NCBI GenBank assembly: GCA_027489355.1
Contig: JAIXZY010000079.1
Span: 1-64,000 of the forward strand
Reading direction: 5' to 3'
Length of the DNA stretch: 64,000 bases
DNA from: Paracoccaceae bacterium
Lineage (GTDB): Bacteria > Pseudomonadota > Alphaproteobacteria > Rhodobacterales > Rhodobacteraceae
A model generated the notes under the pieces. The model had not been told where the DNA came from. It saw only the letters and a program-made list of their open reading frames with translations, and did no database searches. The position numbers were made by a program, and so were the translations under genes. How positions within the stretch are numbered: position 1 is the stretch's first letter; each line of letters starts with the position of its first letter. Below are positions 2,061-19,075 of this stretch, piece after piece.

Positions 2061-3128
2061 ATGATGTCCGACGCCCTTGAATGGATCGAGACCCCCGCCT
2101 TCGTCGTGCGCGATGCCGTCGTCCGCCGGAATATCGCGGCCTTTCAGTCCTATTGCGACCGGCAGGGGCTGGCGCTGCGTCCACATGTGAAGACGCACAA
2201 GCTGGTCCGCTATGCGAAGGCACAGATCGAAGCAGGCGCCAGGGGCATCACCTGCCAGAAGATCGGCGAGGCCGAGGTCATGGCCGACGGCAGCATCGAT
2301 GACATCCTGATCACCTACAACATCCTTGGCCCCGAAAAGCTGACGCGGCTTCGGGCGCTGTCCGACCGGGTGCCGCGCCTTTCGGTCGTGGCCGACAACG
2401 ATACCGTGGTCGACGGCCTGTCGCAGGTCTTTGCCGATGCTGACCGGCCCCTGACAGTTCTGGTGGAATGCGACACCGGCGGAAGACGGTGCGGCGTGCA
2501 GACCCCGGCCGAGGCCCTGGCGCTGGCCCGGCGGATTGCGGCGTCGGCAGGCATCCGCCTTGGGGGGCTGATGACCTATCCGGCGGCGGGCGGTGCGTCG
2601 GACGCGGCCGCCTTTCTGTCGCAGGCGCGGGACATGCTATTGCGCGATGGGCTGGACTGTTCCGTCGTGACCTCGGGCGGGACGCCTGACATGTGGACGG
2701 CACAGTCGGGCGGCGTGCTCACCGAATACCGGGCTGGAACCTACATCTATAACGACCGTTCGCTGGTCCAGCGCGGCACCTGCGGCTGGGACGATTGCGC
2801 GGGGCATGTGCTGGCAACGGTGGTCAGCACTCCGACGCCCGGCCGCGCCGTGATCGACGCCGGGTCCAAGGCGCTGAGTTCCGACCTTCTGGGGCTGACC
2901 GATTACGGACACGTCCTTGGACGGCCGGACATCCGCATCACGGGGCTGAGCGAGGAACATGGCGTGCTGGCCGTCGATCCCGCGCGTCCGCTGAACGTCG
3001 GCGAAAGGGTCCGCATCGTCCCTAACCACGTCTGTGTCGTGTCGAACCTGTTCGACCGGATCTGGATCGAACACGCGGACGGGATGCTGGAAGAAGCGGC
3101 GGTCGACGCGCGCGGTCGCGTGACCTGA
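2061..3128 (+). CDS. DSD1-family PLP enzyme (D-threonine aldolase / D-serine dehydratase-like)
   Basis: A 355-residue fold-type III PLP enzyme with an alanine-racemase-like N-terminal barrel and a D-serine-dehydratase-like C-terminal domain. The Schiff-base lysine is in RPHVKTHK (about residues 42-49). The C-terminal PNHVCVV supplies the His and Cys of the divalent-metal site that characterises D-threonine aldolases and eukaryotic-type D-serine dehydratases. It would cleave or dehydrate a D- or L-threo beta-hydroxy amino acid; the substrate cannot be read from sequence. The start follows a GGAAAGG ribosome site at 2051-2057. A paralogue lies at 4238, with a LysR regulator between them. Confidence 0.85.
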   Translation: MMSDALEWIETPAFVVRDAVVRRNIAAFQSYCDRQGLALRPHVKTHKLVRYAKAQIEAGARGITCQKIGEAEVMADGSIDDILITYNILGPEKLTRLRALSDRVPRLSVVADNDTVVDGLSQVFADADRPLTVLVECDTGGRRCGVQTPAEALALARRIAASAGIRLGGLMTYPAAGGASDAAAFLSQARDMLLRDGLDCSVVTSGGTPDMWTAQSGGVLTEYRAGTYIYNDRSLVQRGTCGWDDCAGHVLATVVSTPTPGRAVIDAGSKALSSDLLGLTDYGHVLGRPDIRITGLSEEHGVLAVDPARPLNVGERVRIVPNHVCVVSNLFDRIWIEHADGMLEEAAVDARGRVT

Positions 3129-3179
3129 GCGCCGAGCGCAAGCTGCGGTAGACTTGCGGCCAACTGCTTGATCTAGTGC

Positions 3180-3196
3180 GCCATGCGACCACATGG
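3180..3196. promoter_or_regulatory. CCATG-N6-CATGG dyad upstream of the LysR gene
   Basis: CCATG (3181-3185) and CATGG (3192-3196) form an inverted repeat ending 10 bases before the chosen LysR start. The left arm with its neighbours reads GCATGGCGC on the minus strand, one base off the GCATGGCGG motif found in other intergenic spots of this cluster. This may be an operator; it is unproven. Confidence 0.35.
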
Positions 3197-3206
3197 AGCT
3201 TACGGT

Positions 3207-4124
3207 ATGGAAAGCCGCTGGCTGGAAGATTTCCTGAGCCTTGTCGACACGCGCAACTTCTCGCGGTCCGCCCAGGCGCGCTACACGACGCAACCCGCGT
3301 TCAGCCGCAGGATCAAGAGCCTGGAGGAATGGGTTGGTGCCCAGTTGTTCAACCGGACCACGCAGCCCATCACCCTGACCCTGTCCGGAGAGCGATTTCG
3401 TCCGGTTGCCGAGGACGTCCTGCGCCGGCTGTACCAGGGGCGCGAGGAGGCGCGGCGGATCGGCGACGTCAACTCGCAGACGATCCGTTTTGCCGCGACG
3501 CATAGCCTGTCGCTGAACTTCTTCCCGGCTTGGCTGCGGGCGCTGGAGCTGCGCAGCCACACATTCAACACGCGTCTGGACACCAGCCAGTTCAACGAAT
3601 GCATCCACATGCTGCAGCGCGGCGAGTGCCAGTTCCTGATCAGCTACACCCACGCCGTCATTCCGATGCACCTGCCGCCCGAACATTTCACGTCGAAGGT
3701 AGTCATGCACGATCAGCTGGTGCCCGTCACTTTGCCCGACACCGAGGGACATCCGGTCGACCAGCTGCCCGGCACCGAGGAAGAGCCCGTCCATTACCTT
3801 GCGTATGCCGAGACGTCGGCGATCGGCAAGGTGGTGGAGCACATGATCGCTGCCTGGGAGGAGCCCTTGCACTTGAACCGGGTCTTCGTCTCGCACATGG
3901 CGGCGGTGCTGAAGGCGATGAGCTCCGAGGGGCGGGGCACCGCATGGCTTCCCGAGAGCCACCTGACGCGGGAATTCGCAGATGGCTCTCTTGTCCGCGC
4001 CGGCGACGCTCGCTGGGATATTCCGGTCGAGGTGCGGATGATCCGCTCGCGCGATCCGCTGCCCGACATGGCCGAAGAACTCTGGAGCCTGCTGCCAGGG
4101 GAAGAGGACTGCGGCTGGGGTTGA
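3207..4124 (+). CDS. LysR-family transcriptional regulator
   Basis: A 305-residue LysR protein. The winged HTH occupies about residues 1-60 (FLSLVDTRNFSRSAQ, TTQPAFSRRIKSLEEWVG, QLFNRT), followed by an effector-binding domain. The start at 3207 (MESRWLEDF) matches the usual LysR N-terminus better than the in-frame ATG at 3183. Unlike most LysR genes it is co-oriented with its neighbours, between the two DSD1-family genes, so it could be cotranscribed with the second. It is the only regulator in the catabolic cluster and is the natural candidate to control it; the inducer is unknown. Confidence 0.9.
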   Translation: MESRWLEDFLSLVDTRNFSRSAQARYTTQPAFSRRIKSLEEWVGAQLFNRTTQPITLTLSGERFRPVAEDVLRRLYQGREEARRIGDVNSQTIRFAATHSLSLNFFPAWLRALELRSHTFNTRLDTSQFNECIHMLQRGECQFLISYTHAVIPMHLPPEHFTSKVVMHDQLVPVTLPDTEGHPVDQLPGTEEEPVHYLAYAETSAIGKVVEHMIAAWEEPLHLNRVFVSHMAAVLKAMSSEGRGTAWLPESHLTREFADGSLVRAGDARWDIPVEVRMIRSRDPLPDMAEELWSLLPGEEDCGWG

Positions 4125-4134
4125 TGCGTCAGCG

Positions 4135-4143
4135 GCATGGCGG
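4135..4143 (+). promoter_or_regulatory. GCATGGCGG motif upstream of the second DSD1-family gene
   Basis: One of three exact copies of this 9-mer seen in intergenic regions of the catabolic cluster (others at 8883-8891 minus strand and 13668-13676). It sits about 95 bases before the ATG at 4238. Confidence 0.3.
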
Positions 4144-4237
4144 GTGGCGCAGCTTGCATTGGCCTCGGCCGGACCGCTGTGGTTGACTTGCCGGCACGCC
4201 CGCGATCCCACCGGGCCGACCCTGCCCGGAGCGCGCG

Positions 4238-5383
4238 ATGACAACCCTTGCCAGCCTGGAAACGCCCTGCCTGATCCTTGACCGGGGCCGACTGGAACGG
4301 AACGCGGCCAGGATGACGGCCCGCTATGCCGGGACCGGGGTCAAGCTGCGGCCGCACATGAAGACGGCCAAGTCGATCGACGTGGCCCGCATTGCGCTGA
4401 CCGGCAATTTCGGCGGCATCACCGTTTCAACCCTGAAAGAGGCCGAGTACTTCGCCGATCATGGCATCGAAGACATCACCTATGCCGTGGGCCTGGTCCC
4501 CGAGAAGATCCCGCGCGTCGCCCGGCTCTTGCGGCGCGGGGTGCAGCTGACCGGGATAACCGACAGTCCCGCGATGGCCGAAGCGATCAGCCGCGCCGCC
4601 GAGGCCGAGGGCGTGGTCGTCGATATGCTGATCGAACTCGACTCCGGCGAACGGCGTGGGGGCCTTTTGGCCGGGAGCGCAGAGGTCGTCGCGCTTGGCC
4701 GCGCGCTGAATGACCTGCCGGGGACGCGACTGTCCGGCGTGCTGACCCATGCCGGCAATTCCTACCAGTGCCGCAGCTTCGACGCGCTGCACGAGGTCGC
4801 CGAAGCTGAGCGGCTGGTCGCCGTCACTGCGGCAGAGCAGCTGCGCGCCGCCGGATTGACCTGTCCGGTGGTCAGTGTCGGCTCGACCCCCACTGCGGTG
4901 CACGGACAGAACTTCAAGGGACTGACCGAGATGCGCTGCGGCGTCTACATGTTCGGCGACGTCTTCCAGCACGAGATCGGATCCCACGGGCTGGAAGATA
5001 TCGCGGTTTCCGTGCTGGCGACCGTAATCGGCCACCGGCCCGACCTGAACGCCGCGCTGATCGACGCGGGGGGGCTGGCGCTGTCCAAGGACCGCAGCAC
5101 CGGCGCGCCGGGCCTGCCCGAGGACGTCGGTTTCGGCATGATCATGGACGAAAGCTGCTCGCGCCGGATCGGAAGGGTGCGGGTGGGGCATGTCTACCAG
5201 GAACACGGGATGCTGGTCAGCGACGGACCGTTCCCGTTTGACGAGCTGCCGGTGGGGGCGCGGGTCAGGGTGCTGCCGAACCATGTCTGCATGACGGCGG
5301 CGATGTATGACGGCTACCGGGTGCTGGACCCGGCCGATCCGCGCCGCGTCGCGGACTTCTGGCCCCGCGTCAACGGCTGGTGA
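4238..5383 (+). CDS. DSD1-family PLP enzyme, second copy
   Basis: A 381-residue paralogue of the product at 2061, with the same plan but clearly divergent sequence. The PLP lysine is in RPHMKTAKS (about residues 38-46), a conserved LTHAGNSY lies mid-protein, and the metal-site motif PNHVCMTAAM is near the C-terminus. Two members in one cluster suggest different substrates, stereochemistry or steps, for example an aldolase and a dehydratase. The following SDR begins 29 bases after the stop, so the two are probably cotranscribed. Family assignment is firm; the reaction is not. Confidence 0.85.
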   Translation: MTTLASLETPCLILDRGRLERNAARMTARYAGTGVKLRPHMKTAKSIDVARIALTGNFGGITVSTLKEAEYFADHGIEDITYAVGLVPEKIPRVARLLRRGVQLTGITDSPAMAEAISRAAEAEGVVVDMLIELDSGERRGGLLAGSAEVVALGRALNDLPGTRLSGVLTHAGNSYQCRSFDALHEVAEAERLVAVTAAEQLRAAGLTCPVVSVGSTPTAVHGQNFKGLTEMRCGVYMFGDVFQHEIGSHGLEDIAVSVLATVIGHRPDLNAALIDAGGLALSKDRSTGAPGLPEDVGFGMIMDESCSRRIGRVRVGHVYQEHGMLVSDGPFPFDELPVGARVRVLPNHVCMTAAMYDGYRVLDPADPRRVADFWPRVNGW

Positions 5384-5412
5384 CACCACTTCAATCCAAA
5401 GGGAGCGCAGAG

Positions 5413-6195
5413 ATGGGCGTCTTCGACCGCCTCCGTCTTGACGGCAAGACGGTTTTCATCACCGGCGGAAGCCGGGGCCTGGGGCGCGAGATCGCGCTGG
5501 CACTGGCCGAGGCCGGCGCCGACATCACCCTGGCCGCCCGCACCGAGGAAAGCCTGGAGCGGACGGCCGCCGACATCCGGTCGCTTGGCCGCAAGGTGAC
5601 GACGATCGTGGCCGACATGGCCGACCCCGCCACCTGCGAGACGGCATGCGCCCGCGCGGTGGAGGAGGCGGGCTGCTTCGACATCCTGGTCAACAACATC
5701 GGCGGGCGACGGGTGAACGTCGGGCTGGAGGAGATGGCGCTGGACCAGTGGCAGCAGCTGCTGGACCTGAACCTGACCTCGACCTACCTCTGCTGCAAGC
5801 ATATGGGCGGCGCGATGATCCGGCGGGGCAGGGGCGGGCGGATCATCAACCTCGCCTCGATCAACGCGATGGTCGCGGGGCGCAACATCCACGGCCGGCA
5901 TTACGAGGCCGCGAAGGCGGCCGTGCTGATGCTAACGCGGTCATTGGCGGTGGACTGGGCCAAACACGGGATCACGGTCAACGCGATTTGCCCCGGCATC
6001 TTCGGGACCGAACCGAACCGGATCTGGGCCGAAAAGAACCCGGCGATCATCGAGGGCTATGTCCAGACCATCCCGATGCGCAAGCTGGGCGAGCCCGAGG
6101 ATCTGGGCCCGCTCGCCGTCTATCTGGCCAGCGACGCGGCCCGCTACATGACGGGCGCCGGGCTGGTGATCGACGGCGGATATACCTGTCTGTAA
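5413..6195 (+). CDS. SDR-family NAD(P)-dependent oxidoreductase
   Basis: A 260-residue classical short-chain dehydrogenase. The cofactor motif GGSRGLGRE lies at about 20-28, NNIGG replaces the usual NNAG, and the C-terminal DGGYTCL is typical. The Tyr-Lys pair is in HYEAAKAAV, giving YxxxK, with LASINAM contributing the Ser. The start at 5413 is preceded by GGGAGCG and matches the family N-terminus; an upstream in-frame ATG at 5380 overlaps the previous stop. It probably oxidises or reduces a hydroxyl/keto group of an intermediate from the neighbouring PLP enzymes. Confidence 0.85.
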   Translation: MGVFDRLRLDGKTVFITGGSRGLGREIALALAEAGADITLAARTEESLERTAADIRSLGRKVTTIVADMADPATCETACARAVEEAGCFDILVNNIGGRRVNVGLEEMALDQWQQLLDLNLTSTYLCCKHMGGAMIRRGRGGRIINLASINAMVAGRNIHGRHYEAAKAAVLMLTRSLAVDWAKHGITVNAICPGIFGTEPNRIWAEKNPAIIEGYVQTIPMRKLGEPEDLGPLAVYLASDAARYMTGAGLVIDGGYTCL

Positions 6196-6211
6196 GTGAG
6201 GGGCGGGGGCC

Positions 6212-7354
6212 TCAGCCCTCGCCACCTTCGGACCACCAGCTGCCGCGCAGGACCATGCCGCGGCTGACGAGGCCGGTCTCCGCCACGATCACCTCGCCCG
6301 ACACGTCGACATGCTCGAACCGGCCCTGGGCCAGTTCCAGGATCGTCGCATCGCCGGGCGTACCGGGCTTCAGCGAGCCAAGCTCGGGCCGCCGCAGGGC
6401 GCGGGCGGGGTTCTGGGTGGTGGCCCGGATCACCTCGGTCAGGGACATGCCAAGCGCCATGAACTTCGACATGACGGCCAGCACGTCATGTGCCGGGCCG
6501 TCGCAGCACAGGACATGGACGTCGGACGAGATCACGTCGGGAAGGATGCCCTCGGCCAGCATCGGGCGGGCGGACTTGAAGGCAAAGCCGCCGAAACCGT
6601 GACCGATGTCGAAGATGATCCCACGGCGGCGGGCCTCCAGAATATCCTCGCGGATCCGGCTGCCACGGGTGACCGGCGCGTTGGGGAACGGGCGGAAGCA
6701 ATGGGTCAGCACGTCGCCGGGGCGTAGCGCCTCGAGCACCTCTTTCCGGCCGGGCGGGGGAAAGTCGATATGCGCCATGACGGGCAGGTCCAGCTCTTCG
6801 GCCACCTCGATGGCGAGGAGGAGCGGCGCAAGGCCCGAGCTGCCGCCGGCGCGGGCGCCGACGCGGGCCTTGATCCCGACGATCAGGTCCAGGTTCTTTT
6901 CGGCCAGGTCCAGGCATTCGCGGTTGTCGAGAAGCCGAAGATCCTCGCATTCGCCCATCATCACGGTCTTCGAGAAGGCGAAGATGCCGGGAAAGGAGAT
7001 GTTCAGATAGGCCAGGATGCGCGGGGCGGCGGGTTCGACGATGAACTTGCGCAGGCCCGCGAAGTTGCCCGCCCCCGCGCTGCCTGCGTCGACGAAGGTG
7101 GTGGTGCCACTGCGCTTGGCGATGGTTTCGGCATCGACGCCCAGCGAGGTGCCGCCCCAGTAGACATGACTGTGCATGTCGATCAGTCCCGGGGTCACGA
7201 TACGGCCCGAAACGGTGCGGACCTCGCGCGCCTCTTGTCCGAGGTCCGGGCCAAGCGCGGCGACCCTGCCGCCCTCGAAGGCCACGTCCATTACGCCGTC
7301 AAGGTCCTGCTCCGGGTCGATCACCCGGCCGCCCTTCAGAAGCAGGTCATACAT
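6212..7354 (-). CDS. Amidohydrolase/deacetylase-family metallohydrolase (EF0837/Atu3266-like)
   Basis: A 380-residue amidohydrolase-superfamily TIM barrel. The HxH metal motif is in GLIDMHSHVYWGG, a probable carboxylated lysine in VGIKARVG, later His ligands in MAHIDFPP and LTHCFRPF, and the catalytic Asp in ISSDVHVL. This matches the poorly defined EF0837/AHA_3915/Atu3266 group, of which one member hydrolyses acetyl-(R)-mandelate in vitro; physiological substrates are largely unknown. It is read left, just downstream of the aldehyde dehydrogenase (12-base gap), so the two form an operon. A role in releasing an N-acyl or ester group is inference. Confidence 0.85.
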   Translation of the reverse strand: MYDLLLKGGRVIDPEQDLDGVMDVAFEGGRVAALGPDLGQEAREVRTVSGRIVTPGLIDMHSHVYWGGTSLGVDAETIAKRSGTTTFVDAGSAGAGNFAGLRKFIVEPAAPRILAYLNISFPGIFAFSKTVMMGECEDLRLLDNRECLDLAEKNLDLIVGIKARVGARAGGSSGLAPLLLAIEVAEELDLPVMAHIDFPPPGRKEVLEALRPGDVLTHCFRPFPNAPVTRGSRIREDILEARRRGIIFDIGHGFGGFAFKSARPMLAEGILPDVISSDVHVLCCDGPAHDVLAVMSKFMALGMSLTEVIRATTQNPARALRRPELGSLKPGTPGDATILELAQGRFEHVDVSGEVIVAETGLVSRGMVLRGSWWSEGGEG

Positions 7355-7366
7355 GGAATTCTCCTG

Positions 7367-8812
7367 TCAGTAGCGGATGCCGACATTCTTGGTCTGCACA
7401 TAGCCGAGCAGCGCCTCTTGCCCCTTCTCGCGGCCATAGCCGGACCGTTTCATGCCGCCGAACGGGGTTTCCACGCCGCCCGCCCACCATTCGTTGACGT
7501 AGATCTGGCCCGCGACAAGGCGGTCGGCGGTCCAGTGCGCCAACCGCAGATCGCGGGTGTAAACGCCCGCTGCCAGACCGTAATCGGTGCCATTGGCGAT
7601 GGCGATCGCCTCTTCCGGCGTGTCGAAGGGCAGGACGACCAGCACGGGGCCGAAGAATTCCTCTTGCGCGATCCGCATGTCCGGGCGGACGCCGGTGAAG
7701 ATGGTGGGGGCCATGAAATGCCCCTTGTGATCCGCCACGCGCGCGCCGCCCATCACGAGGGTCGCGCCCTCGGCGACGCCCGCACGGCAAAGCGCTTCGA
7801 CCCGGTCAAGCTGGCGGGCGTTGATCAGCGGCCCCATGTCGCAGCCGTCGATCCCGGGCCCGACGCTGCGCTGCGCTGCGAGTGTCCGGATGCGCTCTAC
7901 CAGTTCGTCATGGATCGAGCGATGCACGATCAGCCGCGCCCCGGCCGAGCAGATCTGGCCGGCATGGTGGAAGATGCCACGGGTCGCCGAGGCGGCCGTC
8001 CGTTCCAGATCGGCGTCGGCGTAGACAATGGCACCGGACTTGCCGCCAAGCTCCATCACGCAGGGAATGACCCGTTCGGCTGCGGCGCGCAGGACGCTTT
8101 TCCCCGTCTCGACCGAGCCGGTGAAGACGATGTGGTCGATGTCGGGGTGGCTGACCAGCGCGGCCCCGGCCTCGTAGCCATAGCCACAGACGATGTTCAC
8201 CGCGCCCGCCGGGACCCCCGCACGGTGGCAGGCCTCGGCCAGCAGGAACAGGCTGAGCGGCGAATCCTCCGGCGATTTCAGAACGACGGTATTTCCGGTG
8301 ACGATGGCGCAGGCGACCGAACGCGCGCCGACCGGCAGGGGGCCGTTCCAGGGAACGATCTGGGCCGAAACGCCGTAGGGTTCGTGGGTGGTATAGTCGA
8401 TGTAGCCCGCGCCAAGCGGGATCTGCCGGCCCTCAAGCTTGTCGGCGAGGCCCGCGTAATATTGAAGGTAGCGCTGGGTCAGGGCCACCTCGGCCCGGCC
8501 CGCGGCCAAGGTCTTGCCGTTGTCGCGGCATTCGACCAGCGCGATCTCGTCGGCCAGGTCGCCCAGATGGCGCGCGACCTCGACCATCAGGTCGCCCCGG
8601 CGATGCGGGCGCAGATCGCGCAACACGCGGCTGTCGAAACAGCGCCGTGCCGCCGCGACGGCGCGGTCTATGTCGTCGGCGGTGCCGCTCGCGACCTCGG
8701 CAATGGGCTCGTCCAGTGCGGGGTCGGTCACGGTGATCCGCCCGCCGTCGCCGCCGTCGACCCAGGCGCCGTCGATGTAGTTCTGCCAGTAGGGCCGTAC
8801 CGTCTGTGTCAT
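7367..8812 (-). CDS. NAD(P)-dependent aldehyde dehydrogenase
   Basis: A 481-residue aldehyde dehydrogenase of normal length. Visible motifs are IVPWNGPL and FTGSVETGK for cofactor binding, the general-base Glu in MELGGKSG, the nucleophilic Cys in GQICSAGARL, and EEFFGPVL and FGGMKRSGYGRE near the C-terminus. The start at 8812 (MTQTVRPYWQNYIDGAW) fits the family and excludes a 30-residue upstream extension. It heads a two-gene operon with the amidohydrolase and is divergent from the M81 gene. It may oxidise the aldehyde made by aldol cleavage in the DSD1-family step. Confidence 0.9.
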   Translation of the reverse strand: MTQTVRPYWQNYIDGAWVDGGDGGRITVTDPALDEPIAEVASGTADDIDRAVAAARRCFDSRVLRDLRPHRRGDLMVEVARHLGDLADEIALVECRDNGKTLAAGRAEVALTQRYLQYYAGLADKLEGRQIPLGAGYIDYTTHEPYGVSAQIVPWNGPLPVGARSVACAIVTGNTVVLKSPEDSPLSLFLLAEACHRAGVPAGAVNIVCGYGYEAGAALVSHPDIDHIVFTGSVETGKSVLRAAAERVIPCVMELGGKSGAIVYADADLERTAASATRGIFHHAGQICSAGARLIVHRSIHDELVERIRTLAAQRSVGPGIDGCDMGPLINARQLDRVEALCRAGVAEGATLVMGGARVADHKGHFMAPTIFTGVRPDMRIAQEEFFGPVLVVLPFDTPEEAIAIANGTDYGLAAGVYTRDLRLAHWTADRLVAGQIYVNEWWAGGVETPFGGMKRSGYGREKGQEALLGYVQTKNVGIRY

Positions 8813-9012: not shown

Positions 9013-10545
9013 ATGCCCCAGACCGCCCCCCGCCGCGTCGCGATCCTTGGCCTGATGCTGGAGAGCAACCGCTTTGCCCCCGTCATCACCGAGGAAGACT
9101 ATCTCAAACGCGTCTATCTGGCGGGGGAAGAGATCCTTGAGGATCTCTATTGCCCCGACCCGAAGCTGCCCACCGAAATCCGCGGCTTCCGGGCCGAGAT
9201 GGACAGCCGCGACGACTGGACCCCGGTGCCGATCCTCGTCGGGCTGGTCGAGGCGGGCGGACCGCTCGACCACGCCTTCTTCGAAACCGCGATGCAGGAG
9301 ATCCGCAGCCGCCTGACGGCTGCGTTGCCCGTGGATGCGGTCTACATCTCGAACCACGGGGCGATGATCACCACGGCCAACACCGACCCCGACGGCGAGA
9401 TCTTCGCGGCCGTGCGCAAGATCGTCGGGCCGGATGTGCCGGTTGTCGCGACCCTGGACCTGCATGGCAACGTTTCCGAGCGGATGGTTGAAAGCGCGGA
9501 TGCCATCGTCGCCTACCAGACCAACCCGCATGTCGACATGCTGGAACGCGGGCGCGATGCCGCCTCGATCCTGCATGAACTTTTCGCCGGCATGAAACCC
9601 GAGGTTGCCTTCCTGCGCCTGCCCGTGGTGCCGCCGACCGTCACGCTTCTGACCGAGGCTGGGCCCTATGCCGACATCATGAACTTCGGCCAGTCGCAGC
9701 TGGACGACAAGGTGATCAACGTCTCGATCCTGGGCGGATTTGCCTACAGTGACACGCCGAAGAACGGGCTGGCGATCATCGTCACCTCGCGGGTCCGCGA
9801 CGGCAGCGCGCGGCGGGCGGCGAACCGGATCGCGCGCTTCGCCTGGAACCAGCACAGGCGCTTCGTGCCGAAGCTGACCGGACTGGACGACACGGTGAAG
9901 CGGGTGCTGGAGGTCGGCGCCGACCCGACGCTTCCCGCGGTGATCCTGGCCGATGTGTCGGACAATCCGGGCGGTGGCGGCAACGGCAACACGATGTGGA
10001 TTCTCGAAGCCTTGCACAAGGCGGGCGCGACCGGAGTGATCGTGGGGGTGATCAACGACCCCGCGCTGGCGCAAGAAGCGGCAACCCTGGGGCAGGGCGC
10101 CCGCTTCCGTGCCGTGTTCAACCGGGTGCCGCCCGATGACTTCTCGCGCCGGTTCGAGGCGGACGCCCGCGTGGCAGCGATCCGCGACGGCGATTGTGTC
10201 GGCCGTCGCGGCTTTTATGCCGGGCGGCGGATGAACCTGGGCCTATCGGCGCTTCTCGACCTGGGCGGTATTCAGGTGGTGGTGATCTCGATCCGCACGC
10301 AGTGCGCCGATCCGATCTTCCTTGAAATGATGGGGCTCGACATCGGCAAGGCCCGGGCTGTGGTGGTCAAGTCCCGCGGCCATTTCCGCGCGGGCTTCGA
10401 TGAATTCTTCCAGCCGGACCAGGTGATCGAGGTCGACGTGCCCGGCCTGACCTCGCCCGTCCTGACCCGCTTCGATTTCCGCTCGATGCCGCGCCCGGTC
10501 TTTCCGATCGACGAGGTGGTCGACTGGACCCCGCCGCAGGACTGA
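9013..10545 (+). CDS. M81-family (MlrC-like) metallohydrolase
   Basis: A 510-residue M81/MlrC-family protein. The N-terminal DUF1485 domain carries the zinc-site motifs DLHGNVSERM and a later NPHVDM, and the MlrC C-terminal domain follows with DVSDNPGGGGNGNT. The founding member, microcystinase C, cleaves small peptides; most relatives are uncharacterised and lie beside transporters and amino-acid enzymes, as here. The start at 9013 (MPQTAPRRVAILGLMLESN) is chosen by family fit. It is transcribed alone, away from the aldehyde dehydrogenase, and ends at a bidirectional-looking hairpin. Hydrolysis of an amide or peptide-like substrate is plausible. Confidence 0.85.
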   Translation: MPQTAPRRVAILGLMLESNRFAPVITEEDYLKRVYLAGEEILEDLYCPDPKLPTEIRGFRAEMDSRDDWTPVPILVGLVEAGGPLDHAFFETAMQEIRSRLTAALPVDAVYISNHGAMITTANTDPDGEIFAAVRKIVGPDVPVVATLDLHGNVSERMVESADAIVAYQTNPHVDMLERGRDAASILHELFAGMKPEVAFLRLPVVPPTVTLLTEAGPYADIMNFGQSQLDDKVINVSILGGFAYSDTPKNGLAIIVTSRVRDGSARRAANRIARFAWNQHRRFVPKLTGLDDTVKRVLEVGADPTLPAVILADVSDNPGGGGNGNTMWILEALHKAGATGVIVGVINDPALAQEAATLGQGARFRAVFNRVPPDDFSRRFEADARVAAIRDGDCVGRRGFYAGRRMNLGLSALLDLGGIQVVVISIRTQCADPIFLEMMGLDIGKARAVVVKSRGHFRAGFDEFFQPDQVIEVDVPGLTSPVLTRFDFRSMPRPVFPIDEVVDWTPPQD

Positions 10546-11611: not shown

Positions 11612-12409
11612 CTATTGCGATTCCAGGATGAATTCGCCGATCATGACGTTCATCCCGGCCAGAAGCCCGCCATCCACCGGCAGGGCGACGCCGGTGATGT
11701 AGCTCGCCTCGGCCGAGCCCAGGAACGCGACCGCCTTGGCGATGTCCTCGGGCTCGGCCACGCGGCCCAGCGGATACCAGCGGGCAAGCTTTTCAAAGAC
11801 CTGCGGGTCCTTCTCCTGCCGGATCTTCCAGGTGATGTTGTCGGTGCGGACCGACCCCGGCAAAACCGCGTTGCAGCGGATGCCGTGGCGACCGTATTCC
11901 GAGGCGACCGATTGCGTCAGGTTGATCAGCGCGGCCTTCGCGGCGCTATAGGCCGGGTTGCCAAAGTAGCGCACCCCGTTGACCGAGGAGATGTTGACCA
12001 CCGCCCCGCCGCCCCGCGCCTGCATCCGCGGCAGGACCGCGCGCAGGCAGTGGTAGGTGCCGTTCAGGTTGACGTCGATCTCCTTGTGCCAGGTCTCAAG
12101 CCCGATCCCGGCCAGGTCGCCCGCCTCGGTGAAAGCGGCGTTGTTGACCAGAAGCGTCAGCGGGCCAAGCGCCGCCTCGCAGGCGTCCAGCGCCGCCGTG
12201 AGCGCAGCCATGTCTGTGATGTCCGCCCTGGCTGGAAAGGCGGTGCCGCCCGCGTCGCGGATCAGTCGGGCCGTCGCCTCGGCGCCCTGCGCATCAAGGT
12301 CAAGCACCGCCACCGCAGCGCCCTCCCGCGCCAGGTGCAGGGCAATCGCGCGCCCGATGCCATGCGCGGCGCCGGTCAACAGGGCGGTGGTCGTGTCATG
12401 TCTGGGCAA
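11612..12409 (-). CDS. SDR-family NAD(P)-dependent oxidoreductase
   Basis: A 265-residue classical SDR. The cofactor motif GAAHGIGRA is at about 13-21, NNAAF follows, the catalytic region has ISSVNG and then YSAAKAALI (YxxxK), and the C-terminus has ALPVDGGLLAG. It is the middle gene of the leftward operon with the unrecognised TIM-barrel-like protein and the cyclodeaminase-family protein. It is a different subtype from the SDR at 5413, so the pathway probably has two separate alcohol/ketone steps. Confidence 0.88.
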   Translation of the reverse strand: MPRHDTTTALLTGAAHGIGRAIALHLAREGAAVAVLDLDAQGAEATARLIRDAGGTAFPARADITDMAALTAALDACEAALGPLTLLVNNAAFTEAGDLAGIGLETWHKEIDVNLNGTYHCLRAVLPRMQARGGGAVVNISSVNGVRYFGNPAYSAAKAALINLTQSVASEYGRHGIRCNAVLPGSVRTDNITWKIRQEKDPQVFEKLARWYPLGRVAEPEDIAKAVAFLGSAEASYITGVALPVDGGLLAGMNVMIGEFILESQ

Positions 12410-12430: not shown

Positions 12431-13570
12431 TCACAGGGCGCGGGCGATCCAGTCCAGCGACTGAAGCCGCATGTGCCCGTAATTGTAGAAGGAAATCCGG
12501 TCCGCCCCGGCGTCCCGCGCCGCCCTGACGCAGGCGGCAAGCTCGTCGGCGCCGGTTACATGCGGCCAGGTGGGGCGCAGGATGAAGCCAAGCGCGGCGT
12601 TTTCGCCCACCGTGGCGCGCACCTCGGCGATGTCGGCGGCAATGGCTTCAATTCCGCGCTGGTAGGCCGTCACGTCCAGCCGGTCGGCCGTGCGGCTCAG
12701 GGCGGCAAGATCGCTGCCTTCGCGCCAGCACAGGTTGTTCGGGGTCTGGACCGACGGGATGACCGAAAGCCCGGTTTCGCGCGGCAGGGCGTCGCGGATC
12801 TCGGCGATCAGGCTGGTCACGGTTTGAGCCCGCATGTCCTGCCATGCTGCCCAGTCCGGGTCTGCCTGTGGGTCGGGCAGGGGGGCGCTGCCATCGGCCA
12901 GGAAGGTGTCCAGATCCTGCCGCGCCCGGTCCGCCAGCGCCGCGCCGTCCAGCCCGGCCTCGCGGGCCCGGACCAGGCAGGCGGGGCAGAAACAACTGCC
13001 CAGCAGCGTCTCGGCCGCCGGGGGCAGGTCCACCAGCTCGAACTCGTGGTGATGCCCGTGGCGATAGGTCTGAAAGCCCGGCGTCTCGATCGCCACCTCG
13101 CGCACGCCCGGCTGCGCGGCGGTGTCCAGGCAGAGAGCCGTCAGATAGCGCCGGACCTCGGGCTGCGAAGGGCAGAGCGCGTTCACAAGCACGTCGCCGA
13201 AGGGCGTCTGGCATGCCAGGTCGGGATGCGCCGCTCCCAGCCGGGAATTGTGCAGGCCCACGGTCCAGGCGGTCACCTGAAGGTCCGGCGCGTGGCGCGC
13301 AAGTTCGGCAAGTGCGTCATGTTCCACGACCATCCGCGCCGCCTGCGGTTGCAGCAGGCCATAGCGCGCGGGGTCCGGGCGGAAATAGACGGTGCCGTCT
13401 TCGGGGAAGATCACCCGTCCGCGCGGGCTGTGCGGGCGCAGGAATTTCCCGGCGTGATAGGCGGTGGCCAGAGAGACCCAGTTCAGCCCTGCACCCCGCA
13501 ACCGGGCCGCGACCTTGGGAGTGCCTTCATCCTGCAGGTCCCAGGGGTAGACGAACATGCCGCGCAGCAT
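12431..13570 (-). CDS. Unrecognised protein, probable TIM-barrel hydrolase-like fold
   Basis: A 379-residue protein with no confident family. It opens MLRGMFVYPWDLQDEG and has alternating strand/helix stretches that look like a TIM barrel, including VTAWTVGLHN, VREVAIETPGF, GLSVIPSVQ and DRISFYNYGHM. A Cys-rich SCFCPACLVRAREAG lies near the middle, of a kind seen in some sugar-hydrolase-like barrels. There is no signal peptide. It is first in a leftward operon with an SDR and a cyclodeaminase-family gene, so it probably acts in the cytoplasm on the imported compound. Reading it as a glycosidase-like protein is a weak inference. Confidence 0.7.
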   Translation of the reverse strand: MLRGMFVYPWDLQDEGTPKVAARLRGAGLNWVSLATAYHAGKFLRPHSPRGRVIFPEDGTVYFRPDPARYGLLQPQAARMVVEHDALAELARHAPDLQVTAWTVGLHNSRLGAAHPDLACQTPFGDVLVNALCPSQPEVRRYLTALCLDTAAQPGVREVAIETPGFQTYRHGHHHEFELVDLPPAAETLLGSCFCPACLVRAREAGLDGAALADRARQDLDTFLADGSAPLPDPQADPDWAAWQDMRAQTVTSLIAEIRDALPRETGLSVIPSVQTPNNLCWREGSDLAALSRTADRLDVTAYQRGIEAIAADIAEVRATVGENAALGFILRPTWPHVTGADELAACVRAARDAGADRISFYNYGHMRLQSLDWIARAL

Positions 13571-13820: not shown

Positions 13821-14702
13821 ATGAAGAACATCGTCGTCACCGGGGGCAGCGGCAAGGCAGGCCGTGCAGTCTGCCGTCACCTGGTCGAGCGCGGCTATAC
13901 CGTGCTGAACGTGGACATGACGGCCTCGCCCGATCCGGTCTGCCCGCTGCTGAAGGTGGACCTGACCGATTTCGGCCAGGTGATGGACGCGATGCAATGG
14001 ACCGGCGGCAAGGACCATCCCTTCCGCCAGTTCCGCACCCCGGACGCTGTCGTCCACCTGGCCGCGATCCCGGTGCCCGATACCACGCCCGAGCAACTGA
14101 CCTTCCGCACCAACATCGTCTCGACGTACAACGTCTTCGACGCGGCGCTTCGCGCAGGCGTGCGGCGGATCGTCTGGGCCTCGTCCGAGACGACGCTGGG
14201 CCTGCCGTTCAGTCCGGCGAACCCGCCCGCCTATGCCCCGGTCGACGAAGATCACCCGATGCGTCCCGAAAGCGCCTATTCCCTGTCGAAGGATCTGTCC
14301 GAGGAGATGGCCCGCCAGATGGCGCGCTGGAACCCGGGCACGACCTTCATCGGCCTTCGCCTGTCCAACGTGATGGAGCCGCAGGACTATGCCCGGTTTG
14401 CCGGCTGGCAGGAGACCCCGCGCTTCCGCGAATGGAACCTCTGGGGCTACATCGACGCCCGCGACTCCGCCCAGGCGGTGCGCCGGTCGCTGCATGTCGA
14501 CATGGAAGGGGCGGACCATTTCATCATCGCCAACGGCAACACCGTGATGACCCGCGACAGCGCCGACCTTATGGCCGAAGTCTACCCGGGGGTCGAACTG
14601 CGCGGCAACGTGACGGGGCGCGCAACGCTTCTGTCCATCGACAAGGCGCGAAAGGTTCTGGGCTACGCGCCCGAACATGACTGGCCGGGTCCGAAGGGCT
14701 GA
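13821..14702 (+). CDS. NAD-dependent epimerase/dehydratase-family oxidoreductase
   Basis: A 293-residue extended-SDR protein. It has the NAD motif GGSGKAGRAV, a VVHLAAIP block, WASSETTLGLP in the position of the catalytic Ser/Thr, and YSLSKDL as YxxxK. The overall shape recalls UDP-hexose 4-epimerases and hexuronate dehydrogenases, but the substrate is not evident. ATG 13821 is chosen because the GGGGAG site at 13806-13811 abuts an alternative ATG at 13812. A strong terminator hairpin follows, so it is transcribed separately from the ABC operon. Confidence 0.85.
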   Translation: MKNIVVTGGSGKAGRAVCRHLVERGYTVLNVDMTASPDPVCPLLKVDLTDFGQVMDAMQWTGGKDHPFRQFRTPDAVVHLAAIPVPDTTPEQLTFRTNIVSTYNVFDAALRAGVRRIVWASSETTLGLPFSPANPPAYAPVDEDHPMRPESAYSLSKDLSEEMARQMARWNPGTTFIGLRLSNVMEPQDYARFAGWQETPRFREWNLWGYIDARDSAQAVRRSLHVDMEGADHFIIANGNTVMTRDSADLMAEVYPGVELRGNVTGRATLLSIDKARKVLGYAPEHDWPGPKG

Positions 14703-14727
14703 ACCTTTTCGCTTTATGGCGAATGCC

Positions 14728-14761
14728 GGGGCGCCCTGCTGCATGGCAGGGCGCCCCTTCT
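14728..14761 (+). terminator. Strong rho-independent terminator
   Basis: Twelve-base perfect arms GGGGCGCCCTGC (14728-14739) and GCAGGGCGCCCC (14746-14757) with a six-base loop, followed by TTCT. It lies 25 bases after the dehydrogenase stop and separates that gene from the ABC operon. Confidence 0.85.
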
Positions 14762-14793
14762 CCGTTCTGGGAACCCGCTTATGCGTTGCCCTT

Positions 14794-14807
14794 CAATGCT
14801 ATGCAGG
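14794..14807 (+). promoter_or_regulatory. Motif CAATGCTATGCAGG shared with the 13655 dyad
   Basis: Twelve of fourteen bases match 13655-13668. It lies about 140 bases before the first ABC gene, in the only untranslated region ahead of that operon, so it may be a second binding site for the same regulator. Confidence 0.3.
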
Positions 14808-14944
14808 GCCAACATACCCCCATGCGTTTATTCAATTTCAGTTGCGTCATTTTGGGCTTCACAGTGGGTCCATCAAGAACGGCCGCCAGATGCCGCATCG
14901 GAACACCACTGCAGATCCGTAACACCAACAGGAGACTCCTCCAC

Positions 14945-16168
14945 ATGACCCATCCCTTCCGGACGTCGACGGCGATCCTGGCCCTCAGCCTTGGCATGGC
15001 GGGCCTGGCTTCGGCCGAAACCGTCGTCGATTTCACCGTCGCCGAGTACAGCTCGAAGACCGGCCCCTATTTCCAGGAGGTCGCCGACGCCTTCCAGGCC
15101 GAGAACCCCGACATCAAGATCAACATCGAAGTCGTTCCGTGGGACACGCTTCTGCAGCGCCTGACCACCGACGTCGCCGGGGGCAGCGCGCCCGACATCT
15201 CGATCATCGGCACCCGCTGGCTGCTGGACTTCGCCTCGCAGGGCGTGGCCGAGCCGATCGACGGCTACCTGACGCCTGAATTCAAGGGCACGTTCATCGA
15301 CACCTTCATGGCGCCCGGCGTCATCGACGGCAAGATCATGGGCCTTCCGGTCGCGGCCTCGGCTCGGGCGATGATGATCAACAAGGACCTGTACGACAAG
15401 GCCGGGGCTACCCCGCCCAAGACCTGGGACGAGCTTTACGAAGCCTCGAAGAAGATCGCCACGCTGCCGGAAACCTTCGCCTTCGGCCTGCAGGGCAAGG
15501 AAATCGAGACCGACGCCTATTTCTACTACGCGCTCTGGACCCACGGGGGCGACATTCTCAAGGCCGACGGCACCAGCGGGCTGGACAGCCCCGAGGCGCT
15601 TGAGGCGGCGACCCTCTACAAGAAGATGATCGACGAAGGCCTGACCCAGCCCTCGCCCACGAACTACACCCGCGAGGATGTGTTCAACCTGTTCAAGCAG
15701 GGCAAGGTCGGCACGATCTTCACCTTCCCGATGCTGATCCCGCAGATCAAGGCCGAGGCGCCGGACCTGAAGTACCAGATCCTGCCCTTCCCGGAAGGCA
15801 AGTCGAAGGCGACCTACGGCGTCACCGACACGCTGATGATGTTCGCGGACTCGGATGCCAAGGAAGCCGCGTGGAAGTTCATCGAGTTCGCCTACAAGGA
15901 CGAATGGCGCGAGAAGTTCGACATGGGCGAAGGCTTCCTTCCGGTGACGAAGAACGTGGCGGCGCTGCCCTACTTCACCGAAGACCCGGACGTGGCCGGC
16001 TTCGCGGCGGGCTTGCCCTACGCCAAGTTCGCCCCCACCATCGCGAACTGGGAAGAGATCGCCGATGTGACCGTTCGTACCCTTCAGCAGATCTATCTGG
16101 GCGAGGTTACCGCCGAAGAAGGTCTGAAGTCGGCCGCGGGCGAGATCAACAAGATCCGCGGTCTTTGA
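14945..16168 (+). CDS. ABC transporter substrate-binding protein (sugar type, family 1)
   Basis: A 407-residue extracellular solute-binding protein. Residues 1-24 form a Sec signal peptide (ALSLGMAGLASA, cleaved before ETVV). The mature protein has the family-1 pattern: FQAENPDIKINIEVVPW, GGSAPDISIIG and GLPVAASARAMMINKDLYDKAG. These proteins mostly bind oligosaccharides, glycosides or polyols in the periplasm. The start at 14945 follows an AGGAGACTCC site. It heads a four-gene importer operon. Its neighbours suggest an amino- or amide-containing ligand, but the binding pocket cannot be judged from sequence. Confidence 0.93.
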   Translation: MTHPFRTSTAILALSLGMAGLASAETVVDFTVAEYSSKTGPYFQEVADAFQAENPDIKINIEVVPWDTLLQRLTTDVAGGSAPDISIIGTRWLLDFASQGVAEPIDGYLTPEFKGTFIDTFMAPGVIDGKIMGLPVAASARAMMINKDLYDKAGATPPKTWDELYEASKKIATLPETFAFGLQGKEIETDAYFYYALWTHGGDILKADGTSGLDSPEALEAATLYKKMIDEGLTQPSPTNYTREDVFNLFKQGKVGTIFTFPMLIPQIKAEAPDLKYQILPFPEGKSKATYGVTDTLMMFADSDAKEAAWKFIEFAYKDEWREKFDMGEGFLPVTKNVAALPYFTEDPDVAGFAAGLPYAKFAPTIANWEEIADVTVRTLQQIYLGEVTAEEGLKSAAGEINKIRGL

Positions 16169-16178
16169 TCCCGACGCA

Positions 16179-16207
16179 GAAGAGAGCGGCCGCGCGCCGC
16201 TCTCTTC
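16179..16207 (+). promoter_or_regulatory. Intercistronic hairpin after the binding-protein gene
   Basis: Perfect 12-base arms GAAGAGAGCGGC (16179-16190) and GCCGCTCTCTTC (16196-16207) with a five-base loop. It sits 10 bases after the binding-protein stop and before the first permease gene, without a T-run. Such hairpins commonly protect the upstream mRNA and let the binding protein be made in excess of the membrane subunits. Confidence 0.7.
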
Positions 16208-16255
16208 GATTTGACGGCGAAGTTGCGCCCAGTGGAATGCCGGGCCGGGGGAACG

Positions 16256-17158
16256 ATGGCTAACCGCATCCAGAAATCCGTGCCTTTGATGATGATCCTG
16301 CCGGGTCTTGCCCTGGCGGTTGCGATCATCGGCTATCCGATTTTCGACCTGGCCTGGACCTCGTTGCAGGATGTCAGCCGCTTCGGAAAGCTGACCGGGT
16401 TCAACGGCGGCGAGAACTACGCCGAGGTCTTCGGCGACCCGCTGTTCTGGGAATCGCTCTGGCGGACCGGAATCTGGACGCTGGCCGTCGTGCTGGGGAC
16501 GCTGGCGATCTCGATGCCGGTGGCGATGATCCTGAACGACGATTTCTACGGCCGGGGCCTGGCGCGGGTGATCATCATGCTGCCCTGGGCCATCTCGCTG
16601 ACCATGACGGCCGTGGTCTGGCGCTGGGCGCTGAACGGGCGCGCGGGCCTTTTGAACGCAACGCTGATGAACGCGGGCATCATCGACCAGCCAATTGAAT
16701 GGCTCGCCACCGCTTCGACCGCCTTCGTCGTCGAGATTTTGGTGGGCATCCTGGTCTCGATCCCGTTCACCACGACGATCCTGCTGGGCGGGCTGTCGTC
16801 CATGCCGCAGGACGCTTACGAGGCCGCCGTGGTGGACGGTGCCTCGGGTTGGCACCAGTTCCGCTACATCACGCTGCCGCTGATGAAGCCTTTCATCAAC
16901 ATCGCCATCGTGTTGAACGTGATCTACGTCTTCAACTCGCTGCCGATCATCTGGGTGATGACCGAAGGCGGGCCGGCCAATGGCACCGACATCCTGGTCA
17001 CTTACCTGTACAAGCTCGCCTTCCGCTTCGGCCAGCTGGGCAAGGCCTCGGCGATCTCGCTGATCATGTTCTTCGTCCTTTTGGCATTCACCATGCTGTA
17101 TGTCGCCCTGGTCAGCCGCAACGACCGCGACGATGCCGCGCCGGAAGAGGAGGTCTGA
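16256..17158 (+). CDS. ABC sugar transporter permease, MalF-type
   Basis: A 300-residue inner-membrane permease with about six transmembrane helices, the first at [19 protein letters not shown]. The EAA loop [14 protein letters not shown] at about residues 200-213 contacts the ATPase. The start at 16256 (MANRIQKSV) lies behind a GGGGGAA site and removes a short non-conserved extension. It pairs with the permease at 17160, whose start follows the stop by one base, to form the heterodimeric channel. Confidence 0.92.
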
Positions 17159-17159
17159 C

Positions 17160-17990
17160 ATGACCAGCAAGACGACGCGCAGCATCCTCTACTGGGCGAT
17201 CCTTTCGCCGCTGATGGTGGTGATCCTGTTTCCGTTCGGCGTCATGTTCGTCACCGCCGTCCGCCCACGGGCCGAGTTGTTCACCTACCCGCCGACCTGG
17301 GGCTTCAGCGAATTCCGCTGGGAAAACTTCTCGGAGATGTGGGTCAAGACCAACTTCGGCGGGGCGCTGCTGAACAGCCTTTACGTCAGCATCTCGGCGA
17401 CGGTGGTCGCGCTTGTGCTGTCGATCCCGGCGGCCTACGCGATGTCGCGCTATCGCTTCGCGGGCAAGGGGGCCTACCGCACCTTCCTGCTGATGACGCA
17501 GATGATGTCGCCCATCGTGCTGGTCCTGGGCCTGTTCCGGCTGATGATGGCGCTGGGCCTGGTCAACGACCTGAACTCGCTGGTGTTGACCTATGCCGCC
17601 TTCAACATGGCCTTCACCATCTGGATGCTGCAAAGCTACTTCAACTCCATCCCCCGCGACCTGGAAGAGGCCGCCTGGATGGACGGGGCCAGCCACCTGA
17701 CCAGCCTTGTGCGCATCTTCCTGCCGCTGGCCGTGCCGGCAATGGTGGTGACGGCGATCTTCACCTTCATCAACAGCTGGAACGAATTCGTGCTGGCGCT
17801 GACCATGATGCGCTCGTCCGAGGACTTCACCCTGCCGGTCCAGATCTACGCGCAGGTTGCCGGACGATATCAGGTGGAATGGCACCATGTCATGGCCGCG
17901 ACAGTCCTCGCCACCGTTCCAGTCGCCATCGTGTTCTCGTGGCTGCAGCGCTACCTGATCCGGGGCATGGCGCTGGGTGCCGTCAAATGA
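17160..17990 (+). CDS. ABC sugar transporter permease, MalG-type
   Basis: A 276-residue inner-membrane permease. Helices are visible at ILYWAILSPLMVVILFPFG and LLNSLYVSISATVVALVLSI, and the EAA loop is EEAAWMDGASHLTSL. The C-terminal helix is followed by the usual short cytoplasmic tail. It is the second channel subunit of the importer, and the ATPase gene begins 26 bases later. Confidence 0.92.
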   Translation: MTSKTTRSILYWAILSPLMVVILFPFGVMFVTAVRPRAELFTYPPTWGFSEFRWENFSEMWVKTNFGGALLNSLYVSISATVVALVLSIPAAYAMSRYRFAGKGAYRTFLLMTQMMSPIVLVLGLFRLMMALGLVNDLNSLVLTYAAFNMAFTIWMLQSYFNSIPRDLEEAAWMDGASHLTSLVRIFLPLAVPAMVVTAIFTFINSWNEFVLALTMMRSSEDFTLPVQIYAQVAGRYQVEWHHVMAATVLATVPVAIVFSWLQRYLIRGMALGAVK

Positions 17991-18016
17991 CCAGACTGTC
18001 TTACAAGGATTGAACG

Positions 18017-19075
18017 ATGTCCTCTGTCACCATCCGCGGGGTCAGGAAGAAGTACGGCGCAATGGATGTGCTGCACGGGATCGACCTGGAAATCCGTGAC
18101 CGCGAATTCGTCGTGCTGGTCGGCCCGTCGGGCTGCGGGAAATCCACGCTGCTTCGCATGATCGCTGGGCTGGAAAGCATCTCGGCCGGGGACATCCTGA
18201 TCGGCGACCGCGTGGTCAACGATGTCCCGGCCAAGGCGCGCGACATCGCCATGGTGTTCCAGAACTACGCGCTTTACCCGCACATGTCGGTCTACGAGAA
18301 CATGAGCTTCAGCCTGCGCCTGAAGCGCATGACCAAGGACGTGATCGACCGCAAGGTGCGTGAGGCGGCCGAAATCCTGAACCTGTCCAAGTTCCTCGAT
18401 CGCTCGCCCCGGCAGTTGTCCGGCGGCCAGCGCCAGCGGGTAGCGATGGGGCGGGCCCTGGTGCGCGACGCGCAGGTGTTTCTCTTCGACGAGCCGCTGT
18501 CGAACCTCGATGCCAAGCTGCGCGTGGTCATGCGGACCGAGATCAAGGCGCTGCACCAGCGGCTGCAGACAACCTCGGTCTACGTGACGCATGACCAGAT
18601 CGAGGCGATGACCATGGCCGACCGGATCGTGGTGATGAACGCCGGCCGTATCGAGCAGATCGGCACGCCGCTGGAACTTTACGACACGCCGGCCAATCTC
18701 TTCGTGGCGGATTTCATCGGATCGCCGTCGATGAACTTCCTGCGCGGTACGCTGGATAACGGCGGGCTTCGGCTTGCGGATGGCACCCTCTTGCCGCTGG
18801 AGAAAGTCGGCCGGGGCACCTTGGGGCAGAAAGTGGTCTTCGGCATCCGGCCCGAGCATCTGGTTCTATCCGAAGATAGCCGTAACCTCGCCGCCGAAGT
18901 GGAGGTGGTCGAGCCGACCGGAGCCAATATCCAGGTCTACGCCAAGGTCGCCGGGTCGCCGCTTTGTGCTGTGTTTACCGAGCGGCACGATTTTCGACCG
19001 GGGCAAAGAATAATGCTATCCTGGGACTATGAAAGATCCCACCTGTTCGACGATGCGACAGGGCAGAGGCTGTGA
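18017..19075 (+). CDS. ABC sugar transporter ATP-binding protein (UgpC/MalK-like)
   Basis: A 352-residue ATPase. It has Walker A GPSGCGKST, Q-loop FQNYALYPH, signature LSGGQRQR, Walker B VFLFDEPLSNLD and the switch His in VTHDQ. After about residue 240 comes the TOBE/OB regulatory domain typical of MalK/UgpC-type subunits (FGIRPEHL). It powers the importer with the permeases at 16256 and 17160. No separate regulator is present in the operon. Confidence 0.93.
   Translation: MSSVTIRGVRKKYGAMDVLHGIDLEIRDREFVVLVGPSGCGKSTLLRMIAGLESISAGDILIGDRVVNDVPAKARDIAMVFQNYALYPHMSVYENMSFSLRLKRMTKDVIDRKVREAAEILNLSKFLDRSPRQLSGGQRQRVAMGRALVRDAQVFLFDEPLSNLDAKLRVVMRTEIKALHQRLQTTSVYVTHDQIEAMTMADRIVVMNAGRIEQIGTPLELYDTPANLFVADFIGSPSMNFLRGTLDNGGLRLADGTLLPLEKVGRGTLGQKVVFGIRPEHLVLSEDSRNLAAEVEVVEPTGANIQVYAKVAGSPLCAVFTERHDFRPGQRIMLSWDYERSHLFDDATGQRL

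Follow-up and report, generated by a model that had tools for sequence, protein, structure and literature searches.

A conserved fifteen-gene cluster of a Paracoccaceae bacterium with a predicted glycosidase-fold protein and a possible role in the catabolism of N-acylated amino sugars

The Gene Cluster

The subject of this study is a cluster of fifteen genes in the 4.2 Mb draft genome of a Paracoccaceae bacterium (assembly GCA_027489355.1), found at positions 2061–19075 of the window, i.e., the whole stretch of 64,000 nucleotides that was analysed, at the start of contig 44 (JAIXZY010000079.1; 146,935 bases). The genes, named A to O, are all intact, open and of full length. They form a conserved functional unit, a catabolic locus, and the evidence gathered below is about evenly balanced on whether this unit breaks down an N-acylated 2-amino-2-deoxy sugar, most likely imported as a small glycoside. 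All of the protein families that the original prediction had named from the letters of the DNA were recovered by Pfam and NCBIfam scans where it had placed them, in open full-length genes.

The cluster begins on the forward strand with A (2061–3128) and C (4238–5383), two pyridoxal phosphate (PLP) proteins of the DSD1 family with Ala_racemase_N and D-ser_dehydrat domains, between which lies the gene of a LysR-family regulator, B (3183–4124). They are followed on the same strand by D (5413–6195), a short-chain dehydrogenase (SDR) that resembles gluconate 5-dehydrogenase but stays under its cut-off (230 bits against 279), and then, on the reverse strand, by E (6212–7354), an amidohydrolase of the EF_0837/PRK09237 type and putative N-deacylase, and by the aldehyde dehydrogenase F (7367–8812). 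E passes the NF006689 model of this type (409.3 bits against a cut-off of 371) and aligns with the solved cog3964-type structure 2ogj (Atu3266) at 207 bits. The forward-strand gene G (9013–10545) encodes an M81 family protein in which the M81 domains are present; a role as microcystinase MlrC in the hydrolysis of microcystin-type peptides was rejected for it (153.8 against a cut-off of 999 for NF041767). Three reverse-strand genes come next: H (10633–11601), of the ornithine cyclodeaminase (OCD)/mu-crystallin family, the second SDR I (11612–12409), and J (12431–13570), a predicted glycosidase-fold barrel.

The remaining genes are on the forward strand. K (13821–14702) is an extended SDR of the epimerase/dehydratase family; the idea that it is a uronate dehydrogenase in an amino-aldarate route to tartrate was retained as a possibility only, its scores against PDB chains being weak (43.8 bits). 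The last four genes have the components of a CUT1 sugar ATP-binding cassette (ABC) importer, namely the sugar-type binding protein L (14945–16168; SBP_bac_1), the two permeases M (16256–17158) and N (17160–17990), and the UgpC/MalK ATPase O (18017–19075), which has the OB/TOBE domains and scores as UgpC type (514 bits, cut-off 432).

Conservation of the Cluster

A scan of 84,980 species genomes with an alignment of J yielded 501 relatives, the best 80 of which were kept as loci, a choice that is biased to close relatives and that may omit records very near the window. The genes of the relatives were taken from a caller based on open reading frames and third-position GC content (GC3), and presence was judged by tblastn with a coverage of at least 0.5–0.55; short contigs are frequent among the 80 loci, and absences from them carry little weight. 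The labels RpiR, NitT and Gfo/Idh used for groups of neighbouring proteins rest on one or two members tested, and for the GMC genes, as for the tetronate genes, a single genome was tested.

The closest relatives of J among the 80 loci are from Tabrizicola and Rhodobacter. When extra flanks were added to these loci, all 15 gene types were found together in six genomes, those of Tabrizicola soli, T. oligotrophica (L030), Rhodobacter sp. YIM 73028, a Rhodobacteraceae metagenome-assembled genome (MAG; L033), Aliiruegeria lutimaris and Tropicimonas sp. IMCC6043, the last two with a different gene order, additional importers, and identities to the window proteins of 52% for C, 54–56% for A and 62% for H. 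It is this recurrence of the whole set in six genomes, two of them with another order, which shows that A to O are a functional unit. D is the single type not seen in the stretches fetched from Gemmobacter straminiformis (L034) and a Rhodobacterales MAG (L031), and purifying selection is apparent in all 15 genes (dN/dS 0.04–0.21 against T. soli). In a sample of 248 genomes from the family, J was present in 10, and, the window aside, a single one of these (G178) had the whole set in the stretches read. The original prediction had asked whether the set stays together in other genomes or is conserved there as isolated pieces only, and the neighbourhood survey showed it to be kept as a unit, with sub-sets occurring on their own as well. 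As a separate observation, the LysR gene B of Rhodobacter sp. YIM 73028 is split into two reading frames (L109:18227–19195).

The sub-sets bear on a different view of the cluster, namely that it consists of two adjacent modules, an amino-sugar importer and glycosidase (I to O) and a pathway with its own substrate, a hydroxy-amino acid or an amino-sugar acid (A to H). J and I occur with an importer often without A to H, E, D, A and RidA occur with an RpiR-like gene and without J in the stretches read from two genomes (G168 and G026), and G, at 74–95% identity, is confined to ten window-type loci among the 80. This view is rather improbable, as a deacylase gene stands beside J and I in 38 of the 80 loci, and the complete set of 15 gene types is kept in two different gene orders. 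H is found at 62–89% identity in nine window-type loci, with a contig-end fragment in another (L044).

The Glycosidase-Fold Protein J and Its Partner I

J has no match in Pfam or NCBIfam at an E value of 0.001, and its profile found nothing below E 0.49 among solved chains, so that sequence-level membership in the glycoside hydrolase (GH) families GH153, GH156 or GH42 was not found in these two comparisons. The AlphaFold model of J is a confident barrel (mean pLDDT 95.2, pTM 0.93), for which the top solved match in Foldseek was the C-terminal glycosidase domain of PgaB, a member of GH153 (E 2e-11, TM 0.63), with GH42, the GH156 sialidase, GH35 and GH20 among the further matches. The identity of J to the leading fold matches is 12–14%, which speaks for a common fold and not for a common family. 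On the strength of this model, J is confidently predicted to be a glycosidase-fold protein that has the barrel in common with PgaB and GH156 and differs from both in its sequence.

GH153 enzymes cut partly deacetylated poly-N-acetylglucosamine (PMC5933820), and catalysis in GH156 uses Asp14 and His134 (PMC6811678). In J, residues D11 and H107 are invariant in all 45 aligned rows and are positioned after strands 1 and 3, and it may be guessed that they are the equivalents of the GH156 pair. No signal peptide was evident by eye at the N-terminus of J. Of the 77 loci that extend far enough to judge, 71 have the gene of I directly downstream of J and in the same orientation, and the two together are the most widespread element among the loci surveyed. 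A side observation concerns a family of proteins of about 113 residues without a Pfam match at E 1e-5 (e.g., L071:12960–13301), which is present in 26 of the 80 J loci, often adjoining J.

The Two DSD1-Family Proteins

The closest solved relative of C is D-threo-3-hydroxyaspartate dehydratase (311 bits over 379 aligned residues), and that of A is, overall, D-threonine aldolase (178 bits). D-threonine aldolase has a His-Asp pair of metal ligands and an extra His that acts as base, whereas D-serine dehydratase has a His-Cys pair and no such His (PMC4401734). Both A and C read NHVC at this motif (H-x-C), and neither shares the His that the BhcC of the same genome has in the corresponding column, i.e., they lack both aldolase features, which this BhcC possesses, and have the PLP domain, the D-ser_dehydrat domain and the His-x-Cys motif of dehydratases and ammonia-lyases of the DSD1 type. 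H-x-C is present in 28 of 31 aligned rows; H-x-D is seen in the genome's BhcC and in a BhcC-like row from Thalassovita aquimarina (L038), and the last row is incomplete. Because of the dehydratase motif and the absent aldolase His, both A and C are predicted to carry out ammonia elimination, and the aldol cleavage which the original prediction had allowed for the DSD1 pair is not supported. C aligns end to end with the D-threo-3-hydroxyaspartate and D-serine dehydratases (3wqc, 3anu) and keeps their H-x-C, but its genomic setting would point to amino-sugar acids as the substrate.

If A were nevertheless an aldolase, it could cleave an amino-sugar acid of six carbons to glycine and a four-carbon aldehyde, which F would oxidise to tetronate or tartrate. 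Besides the overall closeness of A to D-threonine aldolase, this proposal has in its favour that genes for C4 acids adjoin A in three genomes (tetronate in L110 and L112, tartrate in L016), and that in L016 the gene directly upstream of A, on the same strand, encodes a tartrate dehydrogenase (539 bits, cut-off 470). It is very improbable in view of the H-x-C motif and the missing His, and in two of the three genomes (L110 and L112) the tetronate neighbours are placed tail to tail with A. These tetronate genes, at L110:10715–15465 and L112:8396–13136, belong to two MAGs, and the kinase, decarboxylase and isomerase were confirmed in L110.

DSD1-family and OCD-family proteins are also common to the cluster and the beta-hydroxyaspartate cycle encoded by bhcRABCD, and a variant of this cycle might be suspected from the 52% identity of H to the genome's BhcD and from the distant relationship of A and C to BhcC (196.6 and 139.6 bits). 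All three proteins score under the curated cut-offs, which are 690 for BhcC and 500 for BhcD (417.7 for H), and family scans found neither the aminotransferase BhcA nor the dehydratase BhcB among A to O. A complete bhcRABCD set is located on contig 4 of the same genome (L131:4796–10214), with five of five genes over their cut-offs. The cluster was for this reason rejected as the beta-hydroxyaspartate cycle, in agreement with the original prediction, which had noted that the aminotransferase and the dehydratase were missing; a variant of the cycle is largely refuted and retains next to no probability. By its sequence, H is a BhcD paralogue. BhcD-like and BhcC-like genes were also seen close to a J-type cluster in T. 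aquimarina (L038:1100–3500), and since the BhcC-like row has the H-x-D motif, this match to H (49%) and the A-like gene are probably that genome's own bhc pair.

Neighbours of J and I and the Parallel with the ong Cluster

The genes found beside J and I in the 80 loci are informative on what the pair might do. A deacylase of the E type is present in 21 loci and one of the D-aminoacylase type in 17, and they never overlap (P 0.0027); among the 42 loci whose flanks exceed 6 kb on each side the figures are 15, 12 and none (P 0.0016), with kinship among the loci inflating the P value. Such mutual exclusion is what two enzymes with one job would give, the two types replacing each other. A DSD1-type PLP gene stands beside J and I in 25 of the 80 loci, against a background of 38 such genes in about 65 Mb (15 genomes, E ≤1e-20 to C), a density at which about one in 80 random stretches of 21 kb would contain such a gene. 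RidA was found in 18 loci, 15 of which also have a DSD1 gene, and RpiR-type regulators account for 30 genes in 26 loci (two members confirmed). The importer of the J loci is of the CUT1 or the NitT type and clusters on the J tree, with 13 changes against 34.7 in shuffles.

In the closest relatives the association extends to single genes of the window. RidA adjoins A or E in T. soli, Rhodobacter sp. YIM 73028 and G. straminiformis, and a RidA gene was seen between A and B in relatives (L028:20423–20818; L109:17812–18135), where the window has a gap of 54 bases (3129–3182) with no RidA in it. D is paired with homologues of E in G168 and G026, without J in the stretch read, and F is near a GMC oxidoreductase in three loci, L116, L117 and L118 (in L118, where the family was tested, it scores 514 bits against a cut-off of 605). 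Amino-sugar acids are also hinted at, weakly, by a DgaE-related PLP protein that is encoded close to E in G168 (142 bits) and G152 (127 bits), both scores being far short of the cut-offs.

The same kinds of parts, namely a deacylase, a DSD1-type PLP protein, RidA and RpiR, make up the ong cluster of Pseudoalteromonas, which breaks down N-acetyl-glucosaminate (GlcNAc1A). There the D-aminoacylase-like OngB deacetylates N-acetyl-glucosaminate and OngC, a fold III PLP enzyme, converts glucosaminate to 2-keto-3-deoxygluconate (KDG) and ammonia, the cluster also including RidA (OngD) and an RpiR repressor (PMC9537276). The window cluster resembles ong by analogy, in its logic and not in its membership: a deacylase of the amidohydrolase superfamily would be followed by ammonia removal with a fold III PLP enzyme, and RidA accompanies A or E in close relatives. 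It differs in having a sugar-type ABC importer, another type of deacylase, a LysR regulator, the genes J, I and K, and the genes for the M81 and OCD proteins. Neither RidA nor RpiR nor a KDG kinase is found among A to O, so that the set of D-aminoacylase-like OngB, OngC, RidA and KDG kinase is not reproduced.

Two loci combine parts of these kinds with genes for a keto-deoxy sugar acid. Leeia oryzae (L105) has RidA, importer genes like L to O (53–60% identity), J, I, a DSD1 gene, RpiR and a D-aminoacylase (502 bits to 9g5m, 466 to AfDam and 454 to PpOngB) together with 2-keto-3-deoxygalactonokinase (DGOK; 274 bits) and 2-dehydro-3-deoxy-6-phosphogalactonate aldolase (290 bits, cut-off 207). 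In Undibacterium (L092), DGOK (136 bits) accompanies RidA, J and I, and the contig breaks off within a DSD1 gene. These genes point to a galacto-type amino-sugar acid as the likely substrate of the two loci. They do not fix the sugar of the window, since both J proteins fall outside the window clade and DGOK was seen in these two of the 80 loci only. The window genome has its own DGOK gene (C79; 356 bits) adjoining the gene of an aldolase of the 2-keto-3-deoxy-6-phosphogluconate type (121 bits, below the Eda cut-off of 156), but SMP-30 and GH42 genes stand beside the pair, which therefore probably serves galactosides. N-Acetylgalactosamine or its acid is the best single guess for the sugar, and as such a shaky one. 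A NagA-family gene just above its cut-off is also present in the genome, so a classical amino-sugar route may coexist.

A non-sugar substrate has to be weighed at this point. The original prediction had started from a hydroxy-amino acid, and in a version of this idea an N-acyl or peptide-bound beta-hydroxy-D-amino acid is imported, G and E hydrolyse the amide, C and A dehydrate the product and F oxidises an aldehyde. The closeness of C to D-threo-3-hydroxyaspartate dehydratase and the presence of dipeptide-type importers in two Roseobacteraceae clusters favor it, as do the deamination of D-serine and D-threonine by OngC (PMC9537276) and the action of D-aminoacylase relatives on N-acetyl-D-amino acids, reported along with the structure of OngB (PMC12017989). 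It is unlikely nonetheless, given the predicted glycosidase fold of J, the sugar type of the importer and the keto-deoxy-galactonate genes in two J–I loci. With the fold of J and the spread of the J–I pair, the likely substrate shifts from a free hydroxy-amino acid to amino sugars or their acids.

The Proposed Pathway

From the computed gene content, conservation, J fold, metal motifs and deacylase exclusion we infer the reactions, their order and the kind of sugar as follows. The N-acylated amino sugar, as a small glycoside, would be taken up by L, M, N and O, and J would cut its glycosidic bond in the cytoplasm. The N-acylamino sugar thus released would be oxidised at C1 to the aldonic acid by I, perhaps with K, after which E would remove the N-acyl group. 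C, and probably A, would then eliminate ammonia with PLP and metal to give a 2-keto-3-deoxy sugar acid, a step in which RidA may help in the relatives, and the keto acid would reach central metabolism by way of D and F, or through the 2-keto-3-deoxygalactonate kinase and the neighbouring aldolase elsewhere in the genome. The deacylation and ammonia elimination would follow the ong logic. The amino-sugar reading draws on the glycosidase fold of J, the pairing of J with I, the exclusion of the two deacylase types, the DSD1, RidA and RpiR neighbours, and the H-x-C motif in A and C. Compared with the scheme of the original prediction, sugar-type import, N-acyl hydrolysis and the use of DSD1 enzymes fit the neighbourhoods, the aldol step does not, and J had been overlooked.

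Several points weigh against the amino-sugar pathway. With its nearest folds at 12–14% identity, the activity of J is a guess; a lactonase was not identified; the M81 protein G, H and K have no place of their own in the scheme, and the presence of two DSD1 proteins is unexplained by it. The cluster RidA is missing from the window genome, whose six RidA genes are at most 33% identical to the five compared, three of them giving no match. Across the J loci, an NitT-type binding protein is present in 34 of 80, neither deacylase in 42 of 80, and 19 of the 38 deacylase loci have no DSD1 gene in the available sequence; E-type genes also occur without DSD1 genes in several genomes of the family. The scarcity of DGOK, and the position of the two J proteins concerned outside the window clade, belong here as well.

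In a literature search that left subscription journals mostly uncovered, no paper was recognised on this cluster or on galactosaminate catabolism. Most likely, by analogy, the cluster is a variant of the ong-type oxidative logic for amino-sugar acids with a new glycosidase-like protein. A wider proposition, possible but doubtful, is that J, with its 501 relatives, founds a new glycoside hydrolase family which, together with the SDR I, supplies a widespread pathway of N-acylamino sugar oxidation. In this pathway cog3964-type amidohydrolases would deacylate the amino-sugar acids, DSD1-type enzymes would act as the ammonia-lyases, and 2-keto-3-deoxygluconate or -galactonate would be formed without phosphorylated amino sugars. 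E aligns with the cog3964-type enzyme Atu3266 and is of the EF_0837 type, and its putative role as deacylase comes from its context. Work on enzymes of this type has reportedly dealt with Atu3266 and esters of the acetyl-mandelate type, and such enzymes are not known to act on amino-sugar acids. Were the amino-sugar reading of the cluster right, the J family, cog3964-type amidohydrolases and DSD1 genes resembling those of D-threonine aldolase or D-serine dehydratase would gain a physiological role, and the oxidative route for amino-sugar acids that is known from marine chitin degraders would be extended, with another importer and deacylase, to Rhodobacterales and other Alphaproteobacteria.

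Flanking Genes

After the cluster, on the opposite strand, TonB, ExbB and haem-receptor genes are located at 19138–23326. They score as a haem-uptake set and are read as separate from the cluster, and a siderophore (hydroxyaspartate) link to them was dropped on this account; the set was not noticed beside the cluster in the flanks of relatives inspected by eye, where no targeted search was made. To the left of A, between the contig start and the cluster, there are a tRNA-Met (42–118) and a partial integrase-core (rve) reading frame (1026–1490), so that the left edge of the cluster may be the scar of a mobile element.

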